Shown: piece after piece, positions 6,887 through 35,844 of the stretch | How the letters are laid out: each line of letters begins with the position of its first letter | Numbering within the stretch: the stretch's first letter is position 1 | Assembly: GCA_013306675.1 (NCBI GenBank) | Contig: JABLUY010000311.1 | Span: 1-36,213, forward strand | Origin: Thraustochytrium sp. TN22 | Lineage: Eukaryota > Sar > Bigyra > Thraustochytrida > Thraustochytriidae | Reading direction: 5' to 3' | DNA length: 36,213 bases | Notes under the pieces: generated by a model | The model's input: the letters and a program-made list of their open reading frames with translations, nothing else | Database searches by the model: none | What the model was told of the DNA's origin: nothing | Translations under genes and position numbers: made by a program

Positions 6887-7927
6887 TTAGCGCAGCCGGA
6901 AGAACCGGCGCGAAAGGCTGCGGCCATTACGGCTGCTGGAGCCACCATTGCCGCGAGAGGTGCGCGAGTCGCCGCGCGAGTCGCCGCGCGGGTCGCGCGG
7001 CGTCCGGAGCACGCCAGCCGAGAATAATCCACGCGGCATGGACCGGCGGATTGCGGAGCCGCGCGCCTGTTGGCGGGCGGCCGCAGCGCGGCCCGCCGCG
7101 TCCTCGGAGTCCTCGTCCTCGTCCTCCACCGGCAGTTCGTGCCGGCACGTCGGGCAGGTGTGGTGCTCCTGCAGCCAGGGCTTGATGCATTCCTCGTGGA
7201 AGCGGTGCTTGCAAGGCAGCTCTACGAACTCGCTATCGAGCGCAATCTCGTCCTGACACACGACGCACTCGGTGTCGCCGTGCTGCTGCTCGCGCTGCGT
7301 CATGATGCGCCGCGGCATGGCGTCCACGGCCGCCCTGGACGTTGGCGAGGGCCCGCCGCTCGACTGCGCGCCGAGGAGCGCCGCCAGAAGTCGTTCGAAG
7401 TGGGCGGGACTCCGCGCGTAATCGCTCGGGTTCCCGACGCCAGGCGGGCCGCGCAGGATCACGAAGGGCGGCGGCCCGGGTTCGGGCTCGCCCCTCGTGC
7501 GCTGAAGGACGCGCGGCACCGGGGCGGGTTCCGCGGCGCCTCGGCGAGCTAGTAATCGTCTGATCACGTCATGTAAATCGGGCGTCTCGTCATCATCGTC
7601 ACCGTCGCCGTCGCCGTCACCGCTCGCGCTGCGCCTCAGGTCGTCCCGCCGCGCATCCTCGTCCTCGTCCTCGTCGTCCTCCATCAGGAACGGTCCGCCG
7701 CGGAAGCCACCGCCAAACAGCAGGTCAAACGGCGACAGCGGCCTGCTCACAGGCTGCAGCTCCTCCACAAAGGCCCCGTTGCACTGCTGGCACGTGACCT
7801 CGCCCGATTCCGCATCGTGCACGACCGTCACTCTCTGCATGCACTGGTGGCAAAAGTACGGCTGCTGCTGCGGCGAGCCCCCCTGCCCTTGCGCCTGTTG
7901 CCGCCTCGACTGCGACCACCTGTTCAT
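6887..7927 (-). CDS. RING-H2 E3 ubiquitin ligase, RNF126/RNF115 type
   Basis: 346 residues. An N-terminal zinc ribbon (C26, C29, C46, C49 in FCHQCM...VTCQQCNGAFVEEL) is followed by an acidic disordered region (82-120, poly-Asp/Gly), a Pro-rich part, and a RING-H2 finger at 221-262 with the full ligand set C221, C224, C239, H241, H244, C247, C258, C261. A basic Ser/Arg-rich tail ends in SRRFFRLR. The ribbon plus RING-H2 order is that of the vertebrate RNF126/RNF115 ligases and related plant RING proteins. RNF126's ribbon binds BAG6 and ubiquilin-type UBLs in the cytosolic quality control of mislocalised membrane proteins. By homology this is an E3 acting with an E2; its substrates are unknown. 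The UBL-containing gene at 9325-11205 lies close by. Confidence 0.9.
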   Translation of the reverse strand: MNRWSQSRRQQAQGQGGSPQQQPYFCHQCMQRVTVVHDAESGEVTCQQCNGAFVEELQPVSRPLSPFDLLFGGGFRGGPFLMEDDEDEDEDARRDDLRRSASGDGDGDGDDDDETPDLHDVIRRLLARRGAAEPAPVPRVLQRTRGEPEPGPPPFVILRGPPGVGNPSDYARSPAHFERLLAALLGAQSSGGPSPTSRAAVDAMPRRIMTQREQQHGDTECVVCQDEIALDSEFVELPCKHRFHEECIKPWLQEHHTCPTCRHELPVEDEDEDSEDAAGRAAAARQQARGSAIRRSMPRGLFSAGVLRTPRDPRGDSRGDSRTSRGNGGSSSRNGRSLSRRFFRLR

Positions 7928-9324: not shown

Positions 9325-11205
9325 TTAGTCTGCGTAGATGTCGTCGAGATCGTCGAGATCATCCCCGTCGTCCTCATTCTGGCCACTGTTGTTGTGGTTG
9401 TTGTTGTTGTTCGTGGTGGTGGTGGTGGTGGTGGTGGAGGTGGTGGTGGTGCTGCTGCTGCTGTTACTACTACTGCCGCCAGGGCCGCTGCCGCCTGGAG
9501 CGGAGGTGCCGGCCGGCGTTTGTGATGACGAGGCTGCCGGCGGGACGCCACCAAAGAGGCCCCCACCCATGCCGCCAAAGCCGCCCATGCCGCCAAAGCC
9601 GCCCATGGGCATCTGGGACTGGCCCATCGCCGAGGCAATGGAGGACTGCACCGAAGGGTCAGCCATGGCGCCCATGAAGGACTCCATGAGGCGCGGATTG
9701 GACATCATGACGGTCATCGGATCCTGGCCCGAGCTCATGGCTTGCGTGAGCTGCATCATGAGCTCTGGGTCCTGCATGAGCCGCTGCATCATGTTGGCGG
9801 TGATGCTTTGCATTTGCGGGTTGTTCTGAAACTGTTGCAGCATCTCGGGCGAGACGCCAGGCATGCCACCCATGCCACCCATGCCAGGCATGCCACCCAT
9901 GCCAGGCATGCCGCCGAACATGGAGGCGAAATTGTTGCTGGGCTGGCCAAAGGAGGCGAACGGATTGGCGCCAGCCGCGGTCTGCTGCGGCGGCGGCTGC
10001 GACTGCCCGGATGGGGCGGCACTTGGCACGGCCGCGGCCGAGGCGAGGCGATCATAGGTACGGCGCAGCTCCTCCTGGCGCGCCGCCATATCGCCGGCAG
10101 CCTCTCCGCTCTTGAGGACGAGATAGGCCTCGCCATTGCGGTCCTGCGGCTCGAATCCCAGCGCGCGCATGCAATCCAGGCCACCGGCGCAAGCCGCGAC
10201 CTTGGAGGAGAACTTGGAGTTGCCCTGGCGGATGGACCGGTACTTGACATCGTCCGGGTGGTTGACCACGTTCTTCACATACAGTAGCATGACCTGGATT
10301 GCATCTTTGGCTTGCGTCCCACCGCTCCTGCGCTCCAGGTCCTGCAGCGCAGTTCGCAGCGGTGCGACCGCCGGTGCAGCAGGCGCGCCGGGCGCCGTCT
10401 GGGCCGCCGGCGCGACCCGCGCGCCGCGTGCCGGCGCAGCCGCGGCGGCCTTGCCGGAGATCGCAACGTGCACGGTGAGCCCGTCCTCGTTGATGCCATA
10501 GGACGCCAGCGAGTGCTTGTCCAGCATGATCTTGCCGCGGAAAATGAGCCGCAGCGAGGCAGGCGCCGCCTCAAGCTCGCGCGCCAGCTTCCTGCGCAGG
10601 TGCTGCGCGCCGGCCTTGGCGCTCACCTTGACCTCCACGGCCGCACCCGTAGTGCGCTTGGCGCGCACCATGAGCTCCTCGCCGTCGGTGGGCTCCGGAT
10701 CAGCCTTGTCCTCCTCGTCGAGCGACGCCAGCAGCGCGGCCCTATGGTCGGCCTCCTGGGCCGCGTCCGGGACGCTATCGGCGCCACCCGCGGCGCTGTC
10801 CTCCGTGCTCATGGACATGCGAATCGCGTCGGCCAGCTGCTCGTCCTCGGCAGTCTGCATGAGGCGGAGCACGGTCTGCTCGAGCTTCTCCGGGCTGGCA
10901 CCCGAGAAGCGCTCCTTCTCCGCATTATTGATGTGGAAGGTAAAGGTCGGGAAGGCGCGGATCTGGTACTGCATGGCCAGCATGCTACCCTTGTTGAGCG
11001 GCGCCTCGGTGTCCACAGAGACAAAGACCACCGAAGTGTAGCGCGCGGCCAGCTCGACGTAAAAGGGCGCAATGCGCTTGCACGGCCCGCACCACGGAGC
11101 AAACCAGTCCACGACCACGAGCTTGCTGCCTGCCGCCTGCAGCAGCTGCTGCAGCTGCGCGCCCTGCGTGTGGGACACCTGCCCCGGCGTCCACAGCCCG
11201 TCCAT
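9325..11205 (-). CDS. Thioredoxin-UIM-UBL-PUB-STI1 ubiquitin-pathway protein
   Basis: 626 residues with five recognisable parts. (1) Thioredoxin fold, 5-115, active site WCGPC (C39, C42) and cis-Pro at FPTF. (2) A ubiquitin-interacting motif at 119-134, EDEQLADAIRMSMSTE, which fits Leu-x-x-Ala-x-x-x-Ser with acidic flanks; a weaker copy is at 149-165. (3) A ubiquitin-like domain, 178-252. (4) A PUB domain, 283-366 (VVNHPDDVKYRSIR, a conserved Asn, and ALGF). (5) Met/Gln-rich STI1-type helices, 452-527, as in ubiquilin. The tail has Ser, Thr and Asn runs and ends acidic (DDLDDLDDIYAD). There is no UBA. PUB domains bind the p97/VCP C-terminus and UIMs bind ubiquitin, so a p97-linked shuttle or redox cofactor is a reasonable inference. 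No signal peptide; cytosolic. Confidence 0.9.
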   Translation of the reverse strand: MDGLWTPGQVSHTQGAQLQQLLQAAGSKLVVVDWFAPWCGPCKRIAPFYVELAARYTSVVFVSVDTEAPLNKGSMLAMQYQIRAFPTFTFHINNAEKERFSGASPEKLEQTVLRLMQTAEDEQLADAIRMSMSTEDSAAGGADSVPDAAQEADHRAALLASLDEEDKADPEPTDGEELMVRAKRTTGAAVEVKVSAKAGAQHLRRKLARELEAAPASLRLIFRGKIMLDKHSLASYGINEDGLTVHVAISGKAAAAAPARGARVAPAAQTAPGAPAAPAVAPLRTALQDLERRSGGTQAKDAIQVMLLYVKNVVNHPDDVKYRSIRQGNSKFSSKVAACAGGLDCMRALGFEPQDRNGEAYLVLKSGEAAGDMAARQEELRRTYDRLASAAAVPSAAPSGQSQPPPQQTAAGANPFASFGQPSNNFASMFGGMPGMGGMPGMGGMGGMPGVSPEMLQQFQNNPQMQSITANMMQRLMQDPELMMQLTQAMSSGQDPMTVMMSNPRLMESFMGAMADPSVQSSIASAMGQSQMPMGGFGGMGGFGGMGGGLFGGVPPAASSSQTPAGTSAPGGSGPGGSSSNSSSSTTTTSTTTTTTTTNNNNNHNNSGQNEDDGDDLDDLDDIYAD

Positions 11206-20502: not shown

Positions 20503-22071
20503 ATGAGCTCCGCCGGGTACCAGGGCGGCCCGTACTGCGAGGTGTTCTCGCCGCAGGGCACCGACCCGGTGCGCAAGCAGGGCGTGGGCGCGCATGGCCG
20601 CGTACGCAGGGAGTTCGACAAGGACATCAAGAGCTACGCGCTGGTGTGCGATGGGGGGCCGTCCTGCAAGGTCGAGCTCCCGGGCCCACGCGCCAAGGTC
20701 AAGGCGCTCGGCCTGACGCAGCGCTTCCTGGCGCTGCAGCTCTGGCTTCCGGCCGCGCCCGAGCACTTCGGGCTAGAGCTCACGGTGGCCGACACGCAGC
20801 GTACGCGACGGCGCCTCGTCATTGCGTCCGCCTTCCGGAACGTCGTCGCGCACCCGCTGCACGTGCAGCTGCCGCTGGGCGCCGCCTACGACGCGCGCTT
20901 CGGCGACCTCGAGGACCTTGGCGCTGACGTCGTCCTGCCGCGCGGGGTCTGGCTTACGCTCTGCCTCGACATGCAGGATCTGGTCGCCACAAACTTCCCG
21001 GGCATCAACTTCCGCGCGCTCGAGGGGCTCGCCCTCAACGGCACCTGCAAGCTGCGCCGAATCTTCACACTCAGGGACCGCCCGGCCGGCCTGCACGACG
21101 CGGCGCCGCCCGGCTGCACCGTTCAGCCCATCCCACGGCAGCTCCACTTCCCGAGCGCCATGGCGACCAGCCCGCCCTGCGTCTTCTACGCCATGTCGGC
21201 CGTGCTTGCCTGGGAGAGCCTACACGGCGGGGACCATGGCAGCTCGCCGCGCAAACATACGCTGGCTGCCGCGGGCGCCACAGCCGGCCGCACGCGTCGT
21301 CTCACGGAGAGGACGCAGCCGGCCTCGGCGCGCAGCGCCGTCTCCTCGACGAGCCGTCGCAGCTCGCCGCGCACACGAAGACTGCTTGAGGCCAAGCACC
21401 GCGGCGCCGCCCCCAAGCCGGAGACCGTCGAGGACGGCGGTGCTTTTGACGATTCTCGTGAGGAGCTCGATGACGGCGCGAGCCAACCGGAGCGCCATGA
21501 GGAGGACCACCGGCCCGTGCTGCCTGCCCTTGCCCGCGCCAAGCGCGACAGGCGTGCGTCGCCCTCCGGCAGTCCAGCTGCTGCCGTCGCCTCGCCGCGG
21601 TTCACGCTCGACTTGCCGCAGCCCGCAAGGCCTGCGGTCCGTCGTTCCGGGTCCACCGCCCGCGGGAAGCCCGCTTCGACAAACCAGGCCGATGCAGACC
21701 CTTCCCCTGCGCCGCAGCGTGCCGCGAGCGAGGAGGCCTTCAACGAGTACGCGGCCAACTCGCCGCTTTCCCCGCCTGCAAGTCGATCGAGTGCGCGAAC
21801 TACGAGCGCCAGCCTCACGGCCGAGCGCGAAGAAGCACCGCGCAGTGGCCGGGCCGCGGGCGCCCAAGCGCTCCGCGAGGCGGCGCTCAACGCCGCGCTC
21901 GACCGCCACCAACGTGCTCTTCGTGCCTCAGCGCCGGACGTGGAGCACGAGGACCGTCATGAGGAGGAGGACCAAAATGAGCCATGGGAGCGCGACGAGG
22001 CCGACGGCAGCGACAGCGGGCATAGCAACGTTGAGGTAGATGCCGAGGCGGATGTCGGGGAGGAGGAGGAG

Positions 22072-22103
<32 letters not shown>

Positions 22104-22764
22104 TTACGTGGGCAAGCCGGCGACGGCAGACGAGGCGTACAAGCAGGGGCAGGATCTCGACTATGCGGACCACGAGCCGTCGGATCATGGCGACGCTCTC
22201 AGCGAGAACGACGAGATCCTTCTGGGCGGCGAGGACGAGGGTAATGATAATGATGACGACCACAGCATCAGTGGCGCAATGACCGGAGACGAGGAGGATG
22301 GCGAGGACGAGCTTTCCGCGACGTTGGACTCGAAGATAGACCTTCGGTCCAGGCTCGACGCAGAGCGCGCTGAGCTCGCGCAGATGGAAGCTCGCCTCGA
22401 CGAGGAAGAGGAGGCTCTTTTGCGCGCGAAGCGCCGAGACCAGACCTGTAGTCAGCGCGCGGACGACCTAGGCACGTTGAGCAAGCAGCTCCTGCAGTCC
22501 ACCATCTCTGATGCTCTGCAAAACCTGCAGTCGGAAGGCCATGGTGCGGACGATGAGGAGGGGGAACGAGAACGCGGTGAAGCGGAAGAGGAAGGTGGAG
22601 ACGAGGAGGACCGGCGCACGCCGTCGTTGTGTCAGGCGCGAGGACAGGACGAGACGAGCTCGGGCCGCGGCACCAGCGGCGAAGATGACCTGGACCTGGT
22701 CTACGACCCGATCTTGGAGTGCTACTTTTGCCCCAAGACGAACAAATACTACCAAGTCAAGTGA
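20503..22764 (+). CDS. CFAP20 domain-containing protein (CFAP20DC-like)
   Basis: 753 residues from ATG 20503 (GCCATGAG). Residues about 4-195 are a CFAP20-like domain: YQGGPYCEVFSPQG at the start, then EFDKDIKSYALVCDG, LGLTQRFLALQLWLP, PLHVQLPLG, WLTLCLDMQDL and CKLRRIFTLRDRP. The long C-terminal half is disordered and acidic, with an Asp run (about 525-535) and a Glu/Asp/Lys helix region. It ends in DPILECYFCPKTNKYY, like the short conserved C-terminal motif I recall in animal CFAP20DC (C3orf67). CFAP20 is an inner-junction protein of ciliary doublets; CFAP20DC's role is less clear. Its presence suggests the organism makes cilia at some stage. Convergent with the Aurora kinase gene. Confidence 0.85.
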
Positions 22765-22893: not shown

Positions 22894-24018
22894 TCATGCC
22901 TCCGGGAGATGGATATTCTTTTGGATCCACGGGTGGCGCAGAACCTCGAGGAGGCTAAGTCTGCGCTCGGCGTACTTGTGCAAGAGGCGGCGGATGAGGT
23001 CCTTGGCTTCTCTGCTCACGTGGCCCGGGAAGCGGTAGTCCAGGGCGCTGATCTTGCGGAAGGTAGCCTCGTTTTCCGAGACGCAGCTCTGCGGCGTGGC
23101 GAGCAGTCCACTGTAATGTGCGCTGCCGGCCGGCGTGAGCAGGCCACTGTAGGGCGTGTCGGTGCCGCGCATGGCGCCAGCCGAGGCCATTTCGTCAGCG
23201 GACGATGGCTCGAAGGGTGGCACGCCCACAAGGAGCTCATACGCAAGCACGCCGACAGTCCAGTTGTCGACGGTCTCGTCGTACGCCTTGCCTCTGACCA
23301 TCTCGGGCGCCAGATAGTCGAGCGTGCCGCACATGGTGGTGCGACGGTTGCCGTGGTTGAAGCTGGCCATGCGCTCGTTCTCCTCGGAGCTGGCGCTGAT
23401 GCCGGCACGCACCTGGAGACGCGCCGTGCTCATGTACCCATTGTAGCCGCGGCGGTCATGCGCCGCCCATCCAAAGTCGGCCAGCTTGAGGATGCCGTCC
23501 TGCGAGAGCAAGAGATTCTCCGGCTTCACGTCGCGGTGAATGACGTTGAAGCTGTGGCAGTAGCTCAGTGCGCTGGCCAGTTGCGCGATGTAGTGCGCGG
23601 CGGTCTTCTCGTCGAACTTGCCCTCCGGCTGCTTCTTCATGTGCTTGTACAGCTCGCCGCCGGCCGCGTACTCGAGGATCAGGTAGACGCGGCGCGGGTC
23701 GTAAAAGTATCCGAAGAGCTGCAAGATATTCGGGTGCTTGAGCCGCGAGTGGATCTCTACCTCCTGTCGCAGCTGACCCCACATGTCGTCGCGCTGCAGC
23801 TGCTCCTTGTCCAGCACCTTGAGCGCCACCACCTGCTTGTTACGCTTGACCTTGGCCCGGTACACGATGCCATACTTGCCTCTGCCCAGCGCCTTGCCGA
23901 TCTCGAAGTCGCGCAGGTTCCATCGCACCACGCCGTCGCTGCAGCTGACCCGCTCGCTCGCGCGCCCACGCAGCGCGCCGTTCTCCGTGGCCAGCGGCGC
24001 GCGCGCCGTAAGCGCCAT
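22894..24018 (-). CDS. Aurora-type serine/threonine kinase
   Basis: 374 residues, kinase domain about 38-366. All catalytic elements are present: GRGKYG loop, K67, HRDVKPENLL (D163), DFGW (181-184) and APE. DFGW, RRTTMCGTLDYLAPEM and FRKIS...FPGHVS match Aurora kinases; T228 corresponds to Aurora A T288 in the activation loop. Two insertions are unusual: about 30 extra residues between DFGW and RRTT (188-224), and about 45 between PPFE and ATFRKI (271-317) containing near-repeats TPYSGLLTP and HYSGLLATP. Auroras phosphorylate spindle and chromosomal-passenger targets in mitosis. The N-terminal region is short (~37 residues). A 75-bp GT-AG interval inside the first insertion could be spliced out in frame. 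Confidence 0.92.
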   Translation of the reverse strand: MALTARAPLATENGALRGRASERVSCSDGVVRWNLRDFEIGKALGRGKYGIVYRAKVKRNKQVVALKVLDKEQLQRDDMWGQLRQEVEIHSRLKHPNILQLFGYFYDPRRVYLILEYAAGGELYKHMKKQPEGKFDEKTAAHYIAQLASALSYCHSFNVIHRDVKPENLLLSQDGILKLADFGWAAHDRRGYNGYMSTARLQVRAGISASSEENERMASFNHGNRRTTMCGTLDYLAPEMVRGKAYDETVDNWTVGVLAYELLVGVPPFEPSSADEMASAGAMRGTDTPYSGLLTPAGSAHYSGLLATPQSCVSENEATFRKISALDYRFPGHVSREAKDLIRRLLHKYAERRLSLLEVLRHPWIQKNIHLPEA

Positions 24019-24897
24019 GCCGTCTCGATGCGTAAAACCGCCCGCGTCGCCCGTCGCCCGTCGCCCTTCGACGCTCTTTCCTTCACCGCTGAGGCAGCTG
24101 GCGCGAAGGCGGCTGCGCCCTGTCTTGTCTTGCCTCGCCCTCCCGTCCGGTCCTGCGCCGTGCCTCGCCGCGCGCGTGGCTCTTGCTGCCGCGCGTGCGC
24201 GTGCGCGAACTGGGACTGGGACTCGGACTGGGACGCGCGCCGCCTTTTGCTGCTGGTGGTCAACCGCTGCTTATGATCCGATGATGACTCCGAGTCGGAG
24301 CAGGCAACATCGACACGAGAAAGTGCTGCTTTGACGCGGCGCCTTCACAGTTTTAAGTAGCGCGCCTCGGCGAGGAGTGACAGGCAAGATCACAGCGCCC
24401 ATCTGGCTCGTCGCGGAGAGCTCCTCGTCGACGCAGGAGAGCTGGGGCCGAAGCAACGAGAAAGTGCTGCTCTTCAACGCGGCGCCTTCACAGTCAAGTC
24501 GTGCGCCTCGGCGTGGAGTGACAGGCAAGACGAGGCCGCAAGCAAATCACAGCGCCCGCCTGAGCTCCTCGTCGACGCAGGAGAGCTGGGGCCGAAGCAA
24601 CGAGAAAGTGCTGCTCTTCAACGCGGCGCCTTCACACAGTCAAGTCGTGCGCCACGGCGTGGAGTGACAGACAAGACGAGGCCGCAATCAAATCACGCAG
24701 CCCAACTAGCTCGTCGCGGAGCGCTCCTCGTTGACGCAGGAGGAATGAGATGGGACCGCGGCGCGAGCTCAGCACAGGGCCCGTCCGCCTCGCCGTGCAA
24801 CGCTCATTGAAAACCAGGTGTCGATCAAAGAAGGTTTTTTTAAGTCGCGTCGCGCAGCCAGCAGCTAGCCTGTGGCGAGCCCGAGGCCGAGCAGGGG
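24019..24897. other. Aurora upstream region with a tandem repeat array
   Basis: 879 bp between the Aurora ATG and the UBAC2 stop, both on the minus strand. It holds the ~142-bp tandem array (24316-24745) plus GC-rich flanks with GGGACT/GGACTC near 24215-24232. Plus-strand and minus-strand frames run through the array only because its period is a multiple of three. No gene supported. Confidence 0.5.
24316..24745. repeat. Tandem array of 141-144 bp units, three copies
   Basis: Units start with CGAGAAAGTGCTGCT at 24316, 24457 and 24601, giving periods of 141 and 144 bp. Shared blocks within units: CGCGGCGCCTTCACA, GGAGTGACAG(G/A)CAAGA, AAATCAC, CTCCTCGTCGACGCAGGAG and AGCTGGGGCCGAAGCAACGAG. The second and third copies are closest; the first and the end of the third are more diverged. 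It is not protein-coding as far as can be judged. It could be a local satellite, part of the Aurora 5' region, or a repeated small RNA. Confidence 0.85.
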
Positions 24898-26951: not shown

Positions 26952-29089
26952 ATGGAGGCCTGCGGAGGGGACGGGTCGGCGTCGCCGCGTAACCAGCCGC
27001 TGCAGGCGGACCCGCCCAAGCCGACGCGCGTGGTGGCGAGCGCGTTCGAGAGCCCCGCGCTCTTGGCCAAGCGCAAGGTGACGGAGCCGCCCACACGGCT
27101 GGCGCTGGACGCGGGGGGAGACGCCAAGCGCCCGCGGCGAACCGCGCGCCCGCGCCCGCGCCGCGCGACACTGGACGACCTTTTGGACGAGCTCAAGCTG
27201 GAGATCCTCTCGTACCTCGTGTTCGGGTCGCCAGGCTCCCTCGATGGCATCTGGAGCGCCTCGCGCGCCTGGCACCGCCTGTGCTCCGGCACAGACCTCT
27301 GGCGGCGGTTTTCCTCGTTCGAGCCGAGCGGCGCGGTCCGCAAGGGCTCCTTCCAGTTCCTTGGCCTCAAGAACCAGGGCACCGAGGGCAACTGCTACAA
27401 GGTGCTGCACCGATGCTCCGGGCGCCTCATGGCCATGAAACGTGCACGCGTCTACCCAACCGGCGAGGGCGTGCCGTACTACATGCTTCGCGAGTTGGCT
27501 TTCCTGCAGGGGCTGCGCCACCCCAACATTGCCACGGTGGAGCGCATCTCGCTCGTGGAAAACAAGCTGTACCTCTTCTTCGGCTACATGGAGAAGTCGC
27601 TCTTCGACCTCATCAACCCGAACAACGACGGCGACGGCGGCAAGCCGCTGCCACAGACCCTGATCCGGCGGTTTCTATACCAAATCTTGCAGGGTGTCGC
27701 CTTTTGCCACCAGCGTGGCGTCCTGCACCGCAACCTCAAACCCAAGCACCTGCTGGTTGACATCCCGGCGATTTCCGAGTCTTCGCGGCGCTACGTGTCG
27801 GTGCGCGAGGAGCGCCCCGCGCTGCCGTACATCCTCGGCAGCTCGGATCGCCGCATACCGCCGCCGCCCGCTCCCGTGGCGCAGGCGACCGGCGCCCAGA
27901 TTGCAGGCGAGGCCGCACCCCAAGTCGACGCCGCGCGCACCGGCCCGGGCTCGCAGGATCAGGCCATGGACTCGGCCGTGTACAAGGCCCTCCTTGAAGC
28001 CGCGGAGCACGGCACCATTCGCATCTCGGACTTTGCGCTCGTGCGGTCAACCTCCATTCCGCTGCGCAACTACACGACCGAAGTCGTCACGCTCTGGTAC
28101 CGCTCGCCCGAGGTGCTCATGGGCGGCCGTTACTTCGCCGCCGTGGACGTGTGGTCTGTCGGCTGCGTCTTTGCCGAGATGCTGCTGGGCAAGCCGCTCT
28201 TCCCCGGCATCTGTGAGGTCGACCAGCTCTTCCAGATCTTCCTCAAGCTTGGCACGCCCAGCAACAGGACCTGGCCCGGCTTTACGGACCTACCCAATTA
28301 CCATTTCGAGTTCCCACGCTGGCCGCGCCGCGGGCTCGCCGTGCACGTGCCGAACCTCGACCCAGACGGCATCGACCTCATGTCCAAGATGCTCGACGTG
28401 AACCCGTGCGCTCGCATCACCGCCGAGGACGCCTTGCGCCATCCGTACTTTGATCCGCTGCGCCCGCCGCCGGCTGTGACGGATACGGCCACCTTGTCGC
28501 TGGCACAGCCAGCGGAGCCTCAGGAGCGCGAGGCCTCTCACCAGCTCGCTGGCCCCGCGGACGCGGACTTTGGCCGCGCCTCCGAGCCGCCCGGAAAGCT
28601 GGACTTTAATGCGCTCAGCTGGCAGCGGCCTTCGGATGTTGGCTTGGCCCCCACCTGCTGGAAGTACGCTGCCAAGGCGGTGGCTGAGGGCAAGGCGCTG
28701 ACTGCCCCGAGGACGCGCCCAGGTCTCGACGACGCTGTCTACCTGCTCCGCTACTACCACTACCTCAAGACGCTCGAGGCGGACATGTTTCCGCTCGAGG
28801 ACTACCTCGCGGTCTCGAACAACAAGATGACCAGGGCTGCCTCGGACGAGGCTGCCGAGGCTGGCATGGCGGAACTGCGCATCACGGCTCCGCAGACGCA
28901 ACAGCCGCCGCAAACCCAAACGCATGTTCAGGTGCAGACAGAAACGCAGGCGCGAGCGGAAGCGCAGGCGCAAACGCAAGCGCAAACGCAAGCGGCTCAA
29001 GCGCAAGCAACGCAAGTTCAGGCGCAAGTTCAGGCGCAAGTTCAGGCGCAAGCAACGCAAGTTCAGGCGCAAGCAACGCAGGGTCAGGC

Positions 29090-29135
<46 letters not shown>

Positions 29136-29972
29136 GCGCCTCCTGGCCCCACTCTTCAGCAGCGCTTCACGGGCTTAGACGAAGCACATCGCAACACGCA
29201 AGAGCTGCAGCCGGTCCACCGCTCCATGCTCGTGGACTGGCTCGTAGAGGTGATCGACGTCTTTGACATGTCGGTGCGCAGCGTCTTCATGGCGGTCAAC
29301 TACACAGACCGCTTCCTGGCCAAGGAGCGCGTGCAGCGCAACCGGTTCCAGCTGCTGGGCGCGACATGCCTTCATATCGCGTCCAAGTGCGAGGACGTCT
29401 CGTACATTGGCGTGGAGGATCTTGTAGTGTGCGCAGACAACGTGTACACCCCCGAGGACGTGTTGCGCCTGGAGGAGAAGGTGCTAAATGCGCTGGACTT
29501 TCGCATCTCCGTGCCGACTGTGGTTGACTTTCTCAACGTGTTCGTGACGCGCCTCAACTACACGAACGATGAGGATGAAGTCTGCACGGTGGCACCAGGG
29601 GACGCCAAGCCGCTGCCGCCCATGCGCGTGCCGCCCGAAGCGCTCTCGCTCGCGCAGTATCTAGCTGAGCTCTCTCTGCAGGAGCAGTTCTTCATTGCCC
29701 AGCTGCCATCGCGCGTGGCGGCGGCCGCCCTGGCGCTCTCGCTGTACATGCTGCGTTTCCGGGTGTCCCCTGTGCGCTTGGAGGCGGTCACGGGCTACTC
29801 GCTGCTCTCGCTGAAGCCGTGCGTGGAGCATCTGAGCAACGCGCTGCAGGACGCGCCCATGCGCGGCACCATGCGGGTCATCATGAGCCGCTACACTCGC
29901 CCGCAGAACCATGGAGTCGCCAGCACTACGCTCACCCGGCCCCTGTACATGCTCTTTGATATTGATGAATGA
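26952..29972 (+). CDS. F-box / CDK-like pseudokinase / cyclin fusion protein
   Basis: 1006 residues in one uninterrupted frame; the start is the first ATG. An F-box lies at about 72-122 (LDDLLDELKLEILSYL, SRAWHRLCSGTDLWRRF). A CDK-like kinase spans about 135-501: K163 in AMKRA, PSTAIRE position PYYMLRE (E181 kept), HRN at 259-261 instead of HRD, DFA at 360-362 instead of DFG, and the T-loop NYTTEVVTLWYRSPEV with T375 at the CDK1 T161 position. A stop-free ~82-residue insert (271-352) separates the catalytic loop from DFA. Cyclin parts: YHYLKTLE near 602 and a cyclin box from about 755 (HRSMLVDWLVEV, IASKCEDV), then the C-terminal cyclin fold. A Gln/Ala linker (646-730) splits the cyclin N-terminus. 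The HRN change predicts weak or no phosphotransfer. Cyclin F also joins an F-box to a cyclin. Confidence 0.92.
28887..29141 (+). repeat. CAG/CAA-rich coding repeat (Gln/Ala linker)
   Basis: Imperfect GCGCAAGTTCAG / ACGCAAGTTCAG units and a final (CAG/CAA)n run encode alternating QA/QV/QT and then about 16 Gln. The tract is inside the cyclin part of the fusion gene. Confidence 0.9.
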
Positions 29973-33402: not shown

Positions 33403-35844
33403 TCAGGTGCTGGAAGGGTCGGCAGGGTCCACCGCGACCGCCTCGGAGGCTGTCGTAGTGGTGATGGTATGACTGTCGTCGGCGGCAGCGGCGATGTCGG
33501 GGGGCAGGGACTTGGGGTTTTCGTCCCCGTGAAGAACCTTCTTGAGAGAGGTGGGCACTCCGTTGAGAAGGACGTTCTCGGCCAAGGCGCCAGCCATTTC
33601 GTTGTACTCAGACGCCAGGTCGGACTCCCGGAGGAAACCAGCGAGACACTGCTGCAGGCGAAGCAGCCAGGCCCATGGACGCGAGCGGGGCACACGACGG
33701 TCCCAGTCGGCGTTTTGGCAGGCGGCCTCCATGGGCTGCACGATCGAGTTGGACTCGGAGAAACCGACGAGGACCTTGGTGTGCACGGTCTCCTCGCCGT
33801 TGATGCACTTGATGAGGTGGTCGGTGGCGTCGGCGGCCAGCGTTGTGGCACGCACGCGGTCAAGGGGCGACGGGTAGTCGCCTTGGCAGAGGTGGCCGAG
33901 CTTGACGGTGCGCACAGAAAAGTGGCCCTTACCCTCCTCTCGAAAGAGCGTCTCCATGAAGTTGAGGTCGTAGGAGGGGCTGCAGAACTCGTTGCGCACG
34001 ACGACAAAATGGCGCTTGCTGTGCTCCGTGATGAGCCCCTTGATGCGCTCGATGTCCTTCTGCATCTGCTGCAGCGTAGGCGACTGTTCCGGGATGTAGG
34101 CGATGTCCGCACCGGAGGCGAGCGCGGAGAGCACGGTGAGGAAGCCACTGTTGCGGCCCTGCACCTCGATAATGAAGACGCGGCTTTTGGAGGAGTCGGC
34201 GCTCTTCTTGCAGGTATCGATGGCGCTGACGATGGCGTTGAGCGCCGTGTCCGAGCCGATGCTAAAGTCGGTGCCCGGAATGTTGTTGGAGATGGTGGCT
34301 GGTACATAGGCGATGGGCACCTTGATCTTATCACGCAGGTGGTAGAGGCCGTTGAGGCCGTCGAAGCCCCCAATGACCAGGAGGGCGTCGAGCTTGAAGC
34401 GCTCGCAGACCTCGTTGATGGCGTCGGCGTTGGACGGCACGGAGCGGTCGGTTCGCAGGTTGCAGCCGCCGTCGCCGGCCCAGCCGATGACGTCCGTCCA
34501 CTTGAGCGGCTTGATGTTGCCGTCCAGAAAGCCCTGGAAGCCGTCGTAGGCCGCAAAGACCGCGTAACCCTGGTTCAGCGCATAGTGGTTGGCGCTGCGC
34601 ACGGCGGCATTGGTGCCGCCGGCCGGCGCGCCGGAGCAGATGATGCAGATGTTGCGTCCGTTGTCCCAGACGGCCTCGCGCTTGGCCACGTCGCGGTTGA
34701 TGGACTTTTGGATGTTCCAGTGGCGCTTGAAGTCCTTGCCGCGCGCGCAGATGGCGCCCTCGAAGTCGAGGCAGTTGGTGAACTCGGCAACGCTTTGCGT
34801 GGCTTCCACGGTCTCCACGAGGGGGTTGAAGGTGACGGCGTAACCGCGCACGCCGACGATGGTGGAGGCGTCCTCCGGCGTGGTGCGCAGCAGGCGTTCC
34901 ACAGCCATGGCGCCCGTGACGGAGCCGAGGAAGCGGTCGTACGCCGAGGCGTAGCCGCCGCGCTGCACGTGTCCCAGGATGGTGGACCGCGTATCGTGGC
35001 CGAGGCGATCCACGATGACCTGCCGCACGTACTCGGTCTTGATTGGCTTGCCGAACTTGTCCACGGCGCCCTCGGCGACGAGGACCGTGCAAAGGCGCGC
35101 GCCGCGCTTGCGCTGATGGTCCAGCTTGGCGCAGAGCACGGATTCCCAGTCGTCGTGCTTGGAGGGCGCCTCTGGGATGAAGATGAAGTCGGCGCCGGTC
35201 GCGACGCCTGCGGCCCACGCCAGGTAGCCGCAGTGCCGGCCCATGATCTCCAGCACGAAGGTGCGCTGGTGGCTCGACGCAGTGCTCTGCACGGCGTCGA
35301 TGGCATCCACGATGCGGTGCAGCGCCGTGTCCGTGCCGATGGTCAGCGTGCCGTCGTACACCATGTCATTGTCGATGCTGCCCACGCAGCCGATGATGTT
35401 GATGTTGGCGTACTTGGCAGCCTGCGCGTCCGTGACACGGCCGGCGGCGTGCAGCTCCGCAAGCAGCGACGGCCACTCCAGCTTGAAGATGTTGGCGCCC
35501 GTTAGCGAGCCATCGCCGCCGCAGCAGATCAGGTTCGTCACGCCGCGCTCCACGAGGTTCTGGCACGCCGTGAGCCGGCCGGGCCGCTCGCGGAACTCCG
35601 CGCACCGCGCGGACCCGATCACCGTGCCGCCCTTGTAGATGATCATCTGCACATCCCCCCAGCTCATGTTCTTGATCTTGTCCAGGCCGTCCACCATGCC
35701 CTGGTACCCCTCGTAGATGCCGTACACGTCGCGCCCGTGGTGCAGCCCGCACCGCACCACGCTGCGCACCACCGCGTTCATGCCCGGCGCGTCGCCGCCG
35801 CTCGTGAACACCGCCACGGCGTGGTCCATCCTCTCCGCGTCCAT
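33403..35844 (-). CDS. ATP-dependent 6-phosphofructokinase, duplicated eukaryotic type
   Basis: 813 residues from ATG 35844; the frame is open upstream to 36054 but reads as Arg/Gly/Glu repeats, so the inner ATG that directly precedes the PFK fold is preferred. Two tandem PFK domains (about 8-400 and 405-775), as in fungal and animal PFK. The N-terminal half is catalytic: SGGDAPGMNAVVR, GGDGS (109-113), SIDND with catalytic D158 (usually TIDND), and MGRHCGYLA (201-209). The C-terminal half has the altered regulatory-type motifs SGAPAGGTNAAVR, IGGFDGL and TISNNIPGTDFSIG. It phosphorylates fructose 6-phosphate with ATP to fructose 1,6-bisphosphate in glycolysis. GGDG rather than GGDD favours ATP over pyrophosphate. 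The tail is Ala/Thr/Asp-rich. Confidence 0.95.
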   Translation of the reverse strand: MDAERMDHAVAVFTSGGDAPGMNAVVRSVVRCGLHHGRDVYGIYEGYQGMVDGLDKIKNMSWGDVQMIIYKGGTVIGSARCAEFRERPGRLTACQNLVERGVTNLICCGGDGSLTGANIFKLEWPSLLAELHAAGRVTDAQAAKYANINIIGCVGSIDNDMVYDGTLTIGTDTALHRIVDAIDAVQSTASSHQRTFVLEIMGRHCGYLAWAAGVATGADFIFIPEAPSKHDDWESVLCAKLDHQRKRGARLCTVLVAEGAVDKFGKPIKTEYVRQVIVDRLGHDTRSTILGHVQRGGYASAYDRFLGSVTGAMAVERLLRTTPEDASTIVGVRGYAVTFNPLVETVEATQSVAEFTNCLDFEGAICARGKDFKRHWNIQKSINRDVAKREAVWDNGRNICIICSGAPAGGTNAAVRSANHYALNQGYAVFAAYDGFQGFLDGNIKPLKWTDVIGWAGDGGCNLRTDRSVPSNADAINEVCERFKLDALLVIGGFDGLNGLYHLRDKIKVPIAYVPATISNNIPGTDFSIGSDTALNAIVSAIDTCKKSADSSKSRVFIIEVQGRNSGFLTVLSALASGADIAYIPEQSPTLQQMQKDIERIKGLITEHSKRHFVVVRNEFCSPSYDLNFMETLFREEGKGHFSVRTVKLGHLCQGDYPSPLDRVRATTLAADATDHLIKCINGEETVHTKVLVGFSESNSIVQPMEAACQNADWDRRVPRSRPWAWLLRLQQCLAGFLRESDLASEYNEMAGALAENVLLNGVPTSLKKVLHGDENPKSLPPDIAAAADDSHTITTTTASEAVAVDPADPSST

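Follow-up and report, generated by a model that had tools for sequence, protein, structure and literature searches.

Cyclin F (CCNF) carries an F-box and cyclin boxes in one chain, without a kinase domain. Fusions of a cyclin with a cyclin-dependent kinase (CDK) were published in 2010 for Phytophthora infestans, where four CDKs that carry cyclin domains at the C-terminus, each verified by reverse-transcription polymerase chain reaction (RT-PCR), all have asparagine in place of the aspartate of subdomain VIb; the passage describing them names related genes, each with the same Asp-to-Asn replacement, in P. ramorum, P. sojae, H. arabidopsidis, Paramecium, Tetrahymena and Theileria annulata, and reports no such fusion gene in P. 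falciparum, T. gondii or two diatoms (PMC3019232). A section of PMC3143110 describes Tetrahymena CYC13, a CDK-cyclin fusion whose N-terminal 35% has no recognised relatives and, its authors being unsure, may or may not belong to the protein, and cites a further fusion from Eufolliculina uhligi. In animals, according to part of PMC10318019, SKP2, CKS1 and CDK2-cyclin A assemble in trans, and the ligase acts on p27. Here, we describe a gene of Thraustochytrium sp. TN22 (assembly GCA_013306675.1, contig JABLUY010000311.1, positions 1 to 36,213; this whole 36,213-nucleotide stretch is referred to as the window) that places a CDK-like domain with damaged catalytic residues and A-type cyclin boxes in a single predicted chain, preceded by a probable F-box.

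The gene is one open frame of 1006 codons on the forward strand (26952-29972). As a first-pass annotation made from the letters alone had claimed, its translation gives 1006 residues and a sole stop at the end, and the CDK-like fold and both cyclin folds were recovered by Pfam searches of the full chain, all far above cut-off (Pkinase, E-value 1.2e-48; Cyclin_N, 1.7e-32; Cyclin_C, 2e-15). That the predicted chain contains both a CDK1/2-type kinase domain and A-type cyclin boxes is, at the level of sequence, beyond doubt. The features of the frame are:

26952..29972, forward strand: F-box-like region, CDK-like putative pseudokinase and A-type cyclin in one open frame, 1006 amino acids
26952..27167, forward strand: N-terminal region, residues 1-72, with the basic cluster KRPRRTARPRPRR at 59-71
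27168..27314, forward strand: F-box-like region, residues 73-121, with a PF12937 match at 79-120, below cut-off
27351..27761, forward strand: CDK-like N-lobe and catalytic loop, residues 134-270, with N141, K163, PYYMLRE at 175-181, HRN at 259-261 and H266
27762..28004, forward strand: 81-residue insert, residues 271-351, between the catalytic loop and DFA
28005..28460, forward strand: CDK-like C-lobe, residues 352-503, with DFA at 360-362, T375 and the equivalents of the Cks groove at 390-454
28461..28721, forward strand: kinase-cyclin linker, residues 504-590, about 87 residues, its end placed by eye
28722..28835, forward strand: likely cyclin N-terminal helix, residues 591-628, placed by eye and separated from the box by a Gln-rich insert
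28836..29162, forward strand: Gln/Ala-rich repeat insert, residues 629-737, with 15 consecutive Gln at 714-728
29163..29516, forward strand: cyclin N-terminal box, residues 738-855, with K812 and E841, and W763, E766 and Q800
29517..29969, forward strand: cyclin C-terminal box, residues 856-1006

The kinase domain is closest to CDK3, CDK1 and CDK2 in the PDB (best E-value 5.8e-84, among the best 60 of 1590 matches), and it shares 144 of 291 aligned residues with CDK3 (55/133 and 89/158 in the two aligned parts). Residues were mapped through the CDK3 alignment, with G11 and D145 as anchors. The HRD aspartate, the catalytic-loop asparagine and the DFG motif serve phosphotransfer and metal binding. 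In the window protein HRD is HRN (residues 259-261; D127 corresponds to N261), DFG is DFA (360-362, with D145 kept as D360 and the glycine replaced by A362), the catalytic-loop asparagine N132 is H266, and the first glycine of the Gly-rich loop, G11, is N141. All four features that would be intact in an active CDK (HRD, DFG, the catalytic-loop asparagine and the Gly-rich loop) are therefore altered within one domain, which points to a genuine pseudokinase rather than to a single base-calling error. In addition, CDK Y15 corresponds to E145, and the PSTAIRE helix reads PYYMLRE (175-181), keeping the glutamate E51 as E181. The ATP lysine K33 and K129 are kept as K163 and K263. R50, R126 and R150 form the pocket for the phosphorylated Thr160 of the T-loop, holding this loop in its active shape; they are retained as R180, R260 and R365, and T160 as T375. 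The roles of R50 and R150 are also given in part of PMC6170502. Overall, the catalytic residues are damaged at several points and those that would hold the T-loop are intact, a pattern from which we infer a pseudokinase kept for its shape. Each of the kinase residues named in the first-pass annotation (K163, E181, T375, N261 of HRN, A362 of DFA and N141) was borne out by the CDK3 alignment; H266, E145, PYYMLRE, the 81-residue insert and the Gln-rich insert that splits the cyclin N-terminal region are features that it did not list. The 81-residue insert had no Pfam match at E-values up to 10 when residues 267-352 were searched, and NCBIfam returned five matches to the whole protein, all under cut-off and four of them to kinase models.

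Part of PMC10318019 names the CDK2 residues at the CKS1 interface. Over six of these, not counting the one printed as Lys23, three are identical in the window protein (E208, F213 and F240) and the others are mildly altered (L175 to M, D235 to N and K237 to H), so binding of Cks by the CDK-like domain is possible.

Among the best 60 of 65 PDB matches to the cyclin part, cyclin A2 scores highest (5e-32), better than cyclin B1 (1.4e-20) and cyclin F (PDB 9cb3, 2.1e-20). The CDK-contact residues of cyclin A, K266 and E295, have their equivalents in K812 and E841, and by this conservation together with the search ranking the boxes are A-type. The substrate-recruitment patch of cyclin A includes M210, I213, W217, E220, L253 and Q254; in the window protein, W763, E766 and Q800 preserve three of these (W217, E220 and Q254). 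The role of W217 in this patch also appears in part of PMC6170502. The Cyclin_N match starts only at position 21 of the profile, and the Gln/Ala-rich insert at 629-737 likely splits the N-terminal cyclin helix (591-628) from the box. Judged by eye, the basic cluster at 59-71 could possibly act as a nuclear signal.

Compared by published description, the window protein fits the HRN type of CDK-cyclin fusion by its domain order and its D-to-N replacement: like the P. infestans fusions, it has a CDK domain followed by Cyclin_N and Cyclin_C, with asparagine in place of the catalytic aspartate. The statement in the first-pass annotation that fused cyclin-CDK proteins occur in oomycetes is correct, and the four P. 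infestans fusions and their relatives, in sharing the Asp-to-Asn change, make the HRN fusion a conserved and known type, the relevant passage of PMC3019232 being silent on DFA. The same passage reports that the P. infestans CDKs keep the activation-loop Ser/Thr, as T375 is kept here. PITG_21617, one of the four P. infestans fusions, has a PSTAIRE helix, unlike the PYYMLRE of the window protein. Likewise, CDK and cyclin share one chain in CYC13 of Tetrahymena and in the fusion from Eufolliculina uhligi, as described in part of PMC3143110, the section being silent on HRN in the CYC13 kinase. The term 'F-box' occurs nowhere in the main text of PMC3019232 on the oomycete fusions or in that of PMC3143110 on CYC13. 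Among the matches listed for open-licence PMC papers, judged by title and the start of the abstract, none reported an F-box fused to a CDK-cyclin. The core fusion is therefore already known, and the weakly scoring F-box would be the new addition if real.

With the SKP2/CDK2-cyclin A assembly the window protein shares the module set of F-box (here F-box-like), CDK and A-type cyclin. That assembly, in the account given in part of PMC10318019, consists of separate proteins, with T160-phosphorylated CDK2 and leucine-rich repeats (LRR) in SKP2; the window protein, in contrast, is one chain with damaged catalytic residues and has no LRR match in Pfam. Its nearer relation by cyclin sequence is cyclin A2 and not cyclin F, and unlike cyclin F it has a kinase domain between the F-box-like region and the cyclin boxes.

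Of the domains named in the first-pass annotation, the F-box is the weak one. The full chain matched PF12937 (F-box-like) with an E-value of 9.5e-4 (19.3 bits; cut-off, 24.3), and residues 57-135 alone reached 2.7e-4 among 24736 models. When these residues were shuffled, none of 10 shuffles matched the F-box at E-values up to 10, a count to be read with the fact that HMMER filters drop most weak matches; none of the 20 other frames tested, out of 52 others in the window, had an F-box match at E-values up to 0.001. The stretch does not look low in complexity. In the PDB, its only two matches at E-values up to 10 were both Skp2 chains (0.28 and 1.2). As a yardstick, the Skp2 F-box fragment used as query matched other F-boxes at between 21.2 bits (FBXW7) and 12.9 bits (Cdc4), so the 14.5 bits between the F-box-like stretch and Skp2 lie within the range of known F-box proteins, the comparison being rough, since the queries differ in length (44 versus 79 residues) and only F-boxes that match Skp2 at all are counted. 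Taken together, the sequence similarity to F-boxes goes beyond chance. The stretch directly precedes the kinase, and its GC content at third codon positions (GC3) is 0.88, like that of the other domains.

Several results weigh against an F-box. Residues 57-135 scored 21.1 bits against the PF12937 cut-off of 24.3 and 12.5 bits against the PF00646 (F-box) cut-off of 20.5 (E-value 0.14), and they also matched HLH at 0.14. Neither Skp2 match is significant singly, and the proline of the LP motif, which is important in F-boxes, is leucine in the Skp2 alignment. The stretch was modelled as three helices at low confidence, with a predicted local distance difference test (pLDDT) score of 60, and a Foldseek search with this model found no F-box protein among the best 50 of 55 matches at E-values up to 10, the best being 1.8 and none under 0.001; we take this as lending the F-box no support. 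The Gln-rich part of the protein gave a TFIIA match at 1.3e-6, a better E-value than that of the F-box and also below cut-off. We rejected this TFIIA identity as compositional; sub-cut-off matches in this 1006-residue protein can therefore mislead. Balancing both sides, we consider it probable, with a fair degree of confidence, that the N-terminal F-box is real.

The frame itself bears the marks of a single gene. None of the 53 ATG frames of at least 150 codons in the window is longer. When its 3021 bases were put through 200 mononucleotide shuffles, the longest open run over three frames averaged 196 codons and never exceeded 492; in the actual DNA, the remaining frames stay open for up to 245, 255 and 294 codons (the last on the reverse strand). 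By segment, GC3 is 0.79-1.00, except for 0.62 in the Gln-rich insert, and seven neighbouring genes have values of 0.81-0.94; codon-position composition is gene-like through the domains, linkers and inserts. Three linker and insert stretches scanned for a hidden in-frame intron contained no GTRRG donor, other GT sites occurring there. Given this and the gene-like codon use, a hidden intron is unlikely, weaker donors still being possible. Neighbouring genes, Pex16 and phosphofructokinase among them, also lie in one frame each and have near-complete domains, so a long gene without introns fits the locale.

An Aurora-type protein kinase (22894-24018, reverse strand, 374 amino acids; closest to Aurora A, 7.5e-87) lies about 3 kb from the pseudo-CDK gene. 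Its HRD and DFG motifs are intact in the alignment, and it carries two inserts within the domain (residues 188-223 and 273-316); in-frame introns are therefore conceivable in this genome. Elsewhere in the window, the phosphofructokinase frame (33403-35844, reverse strand, 813 amino acids) has two PFK stretches (1.1e-175), and a frame at 9325-11205 (reverse strand) joins thioredoxin, ubiquitin-like and PUB domains. A zinc-ribbon and RING-finger protein, perhaps an E3 ligase, is encoded at 6887-7927 (reverse strand). A 753-amino-acid frame (20503-22764, forward strand) starts with a CFA20 domain; CFA20-domain proteins are known from cilia. A tandem repeat at 24315-24696 has a 144-base unit in 2.7 copies with 86% matches, and an Rfam search gave no match at gathering thresholds.

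How might such a protein work? Our tentative interpretation, held at somewhat short of even confidence and drawn from sequence and analogy, is that it may combine a non-catalytic CDK-cyclin docking module with an adaptor motif for a SKP1-cullin-F-box (SCF) ligase, resembling SKP2/CDK2-cyclin A in one chain. The A-type cyclin boxes would fold back on the CDK-like domain of their own chain, for which the linker at 504-590 seems long enough. Using the cyclin recruitment patch, and perhaps also Cks, the resulting unit could dock substrates of the cell cycle or regulators of CDKs, which it would hardly phosphorylate. The F-box would bind SKP1 and so make the CDK-cyclin unit a substrate receptor on a cullin ligase, leading to ubiquitination; the link of about 13 residues between F-box and kinase (121-133) would fix the orientation of the docking unit to SKP1. 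The SCF-receptor role proposed in the first-pass annotation remains plausible. Apart from the weaknesses of the F-box, this interpretation has to contend with the altered PYYMLRE helix, with the change of M210, I213 and L253 of the recruitment patch to H, M and F, and with a pLDDT of only 37.7 for the full-length single-sequence AlphaFold2 model. Three viral-contig scans and one prokaryote-genome scan, using short exact peptide patterns that reach close relatives only, found no relatives.

The main rival explanation has a non-functional F-box and a protein that serves simply as decoy or scaffold, as its known relatives may: an ordinary HRN fusion pseudokinase whose F-box-like helices arose by chance or have decayed, and which ties up Cks, CDK-activating kinase (CAK) or CDK inhibitors. 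We regard this as a substantial minority possibility. The two missed curated cut-offs, the lost LP proline, the lack of fold support and the silence on F-boxes in the main text of PMC3019232 all speak for it, but in a search of the entire library the F-box-like match reaches significance (2.7e-4), its only PDB matches, though weak, are to Skp2, and the stretch sits directly before the kinase with domain-like GC3. Alternatively, the F-box could serve self-destruction, the SCF setting the cell-cycle turnover of the protein itself while the CDK-cyclin module does something else. A passage of PMC3019232 raises the possibility that the stability of the fusions is regulated by their cyclin part, and the N-terminus contains R..L stretches at 49-52 and 71-74; since the whole protein has 10 such matches, these carry little weight, and we find self-destruction improbable.

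Less probable still is that the cyclin part works in trans, activating or docking a separate active CDK with the dead CDK domain as an accessory. The retained contact equivalents K812 and E841 would suit this, and PYYMLRE may weaken cis pairing; yet the linker of about 87 residues, its end placed by eye, allows such pairing, and with R180, E181 and the T-loop pocket retained, the CDK-like domain on the same chain should compete for its own cyclin. As for the kinase, HER3 has weak activity despite HRN, and K163, E181 and D360 are kept here, but the HRD aspartate, the catalytic-loop asparagine (now histidine) and the DFG glycine are all lost together, making even weak activity very improbable. 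Finally, a misassembly or an overlooked intron could have merged separate genes into an apparent fusion. The inserts at 271-351 and 629-737 do lie within domains, and the nearby Aurora-like frame with two kinase-domain inserts makes in-frame introns conceivable. Against this, a single frame runs without a stop, with gene-like codon use through linkers and inserts and no GTRRG donor in the scanned stretches, and the kinase-then-cyclin order with the D-to-N change is RT-PCR-confirmed in P. infestans, according to part of PMC3019232; we give an artefact next to no credence.

By 2010 at the latest, CDK-cyclin fusions with a conserved dead kinase had been reported, and the sections of PMC3019232 and PMC3143110 considered here report no tested function for them. 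An F-box on such a fusion would offer a concrete idea, namely that it recruits CDK substrates or regulators for destruction. Extending this to the whole HRN fusion family of oomycetes and ciliates, as SCF substrate receptors with diverged F-boxes in their N-termini (for example in that 35% of CYC13), is an unlikely generalization. Were it true, a kinase complex would have been turned into a docking arm that passes the same substrates straight to ubiquitination, and the window gene would be the member whose F-box stays readable. If its own F-box is real, the Thraustochytrium protein would form a naturally occurring counterpart, in one chain, to the SKP2/CDK2-cyclin A assembly.

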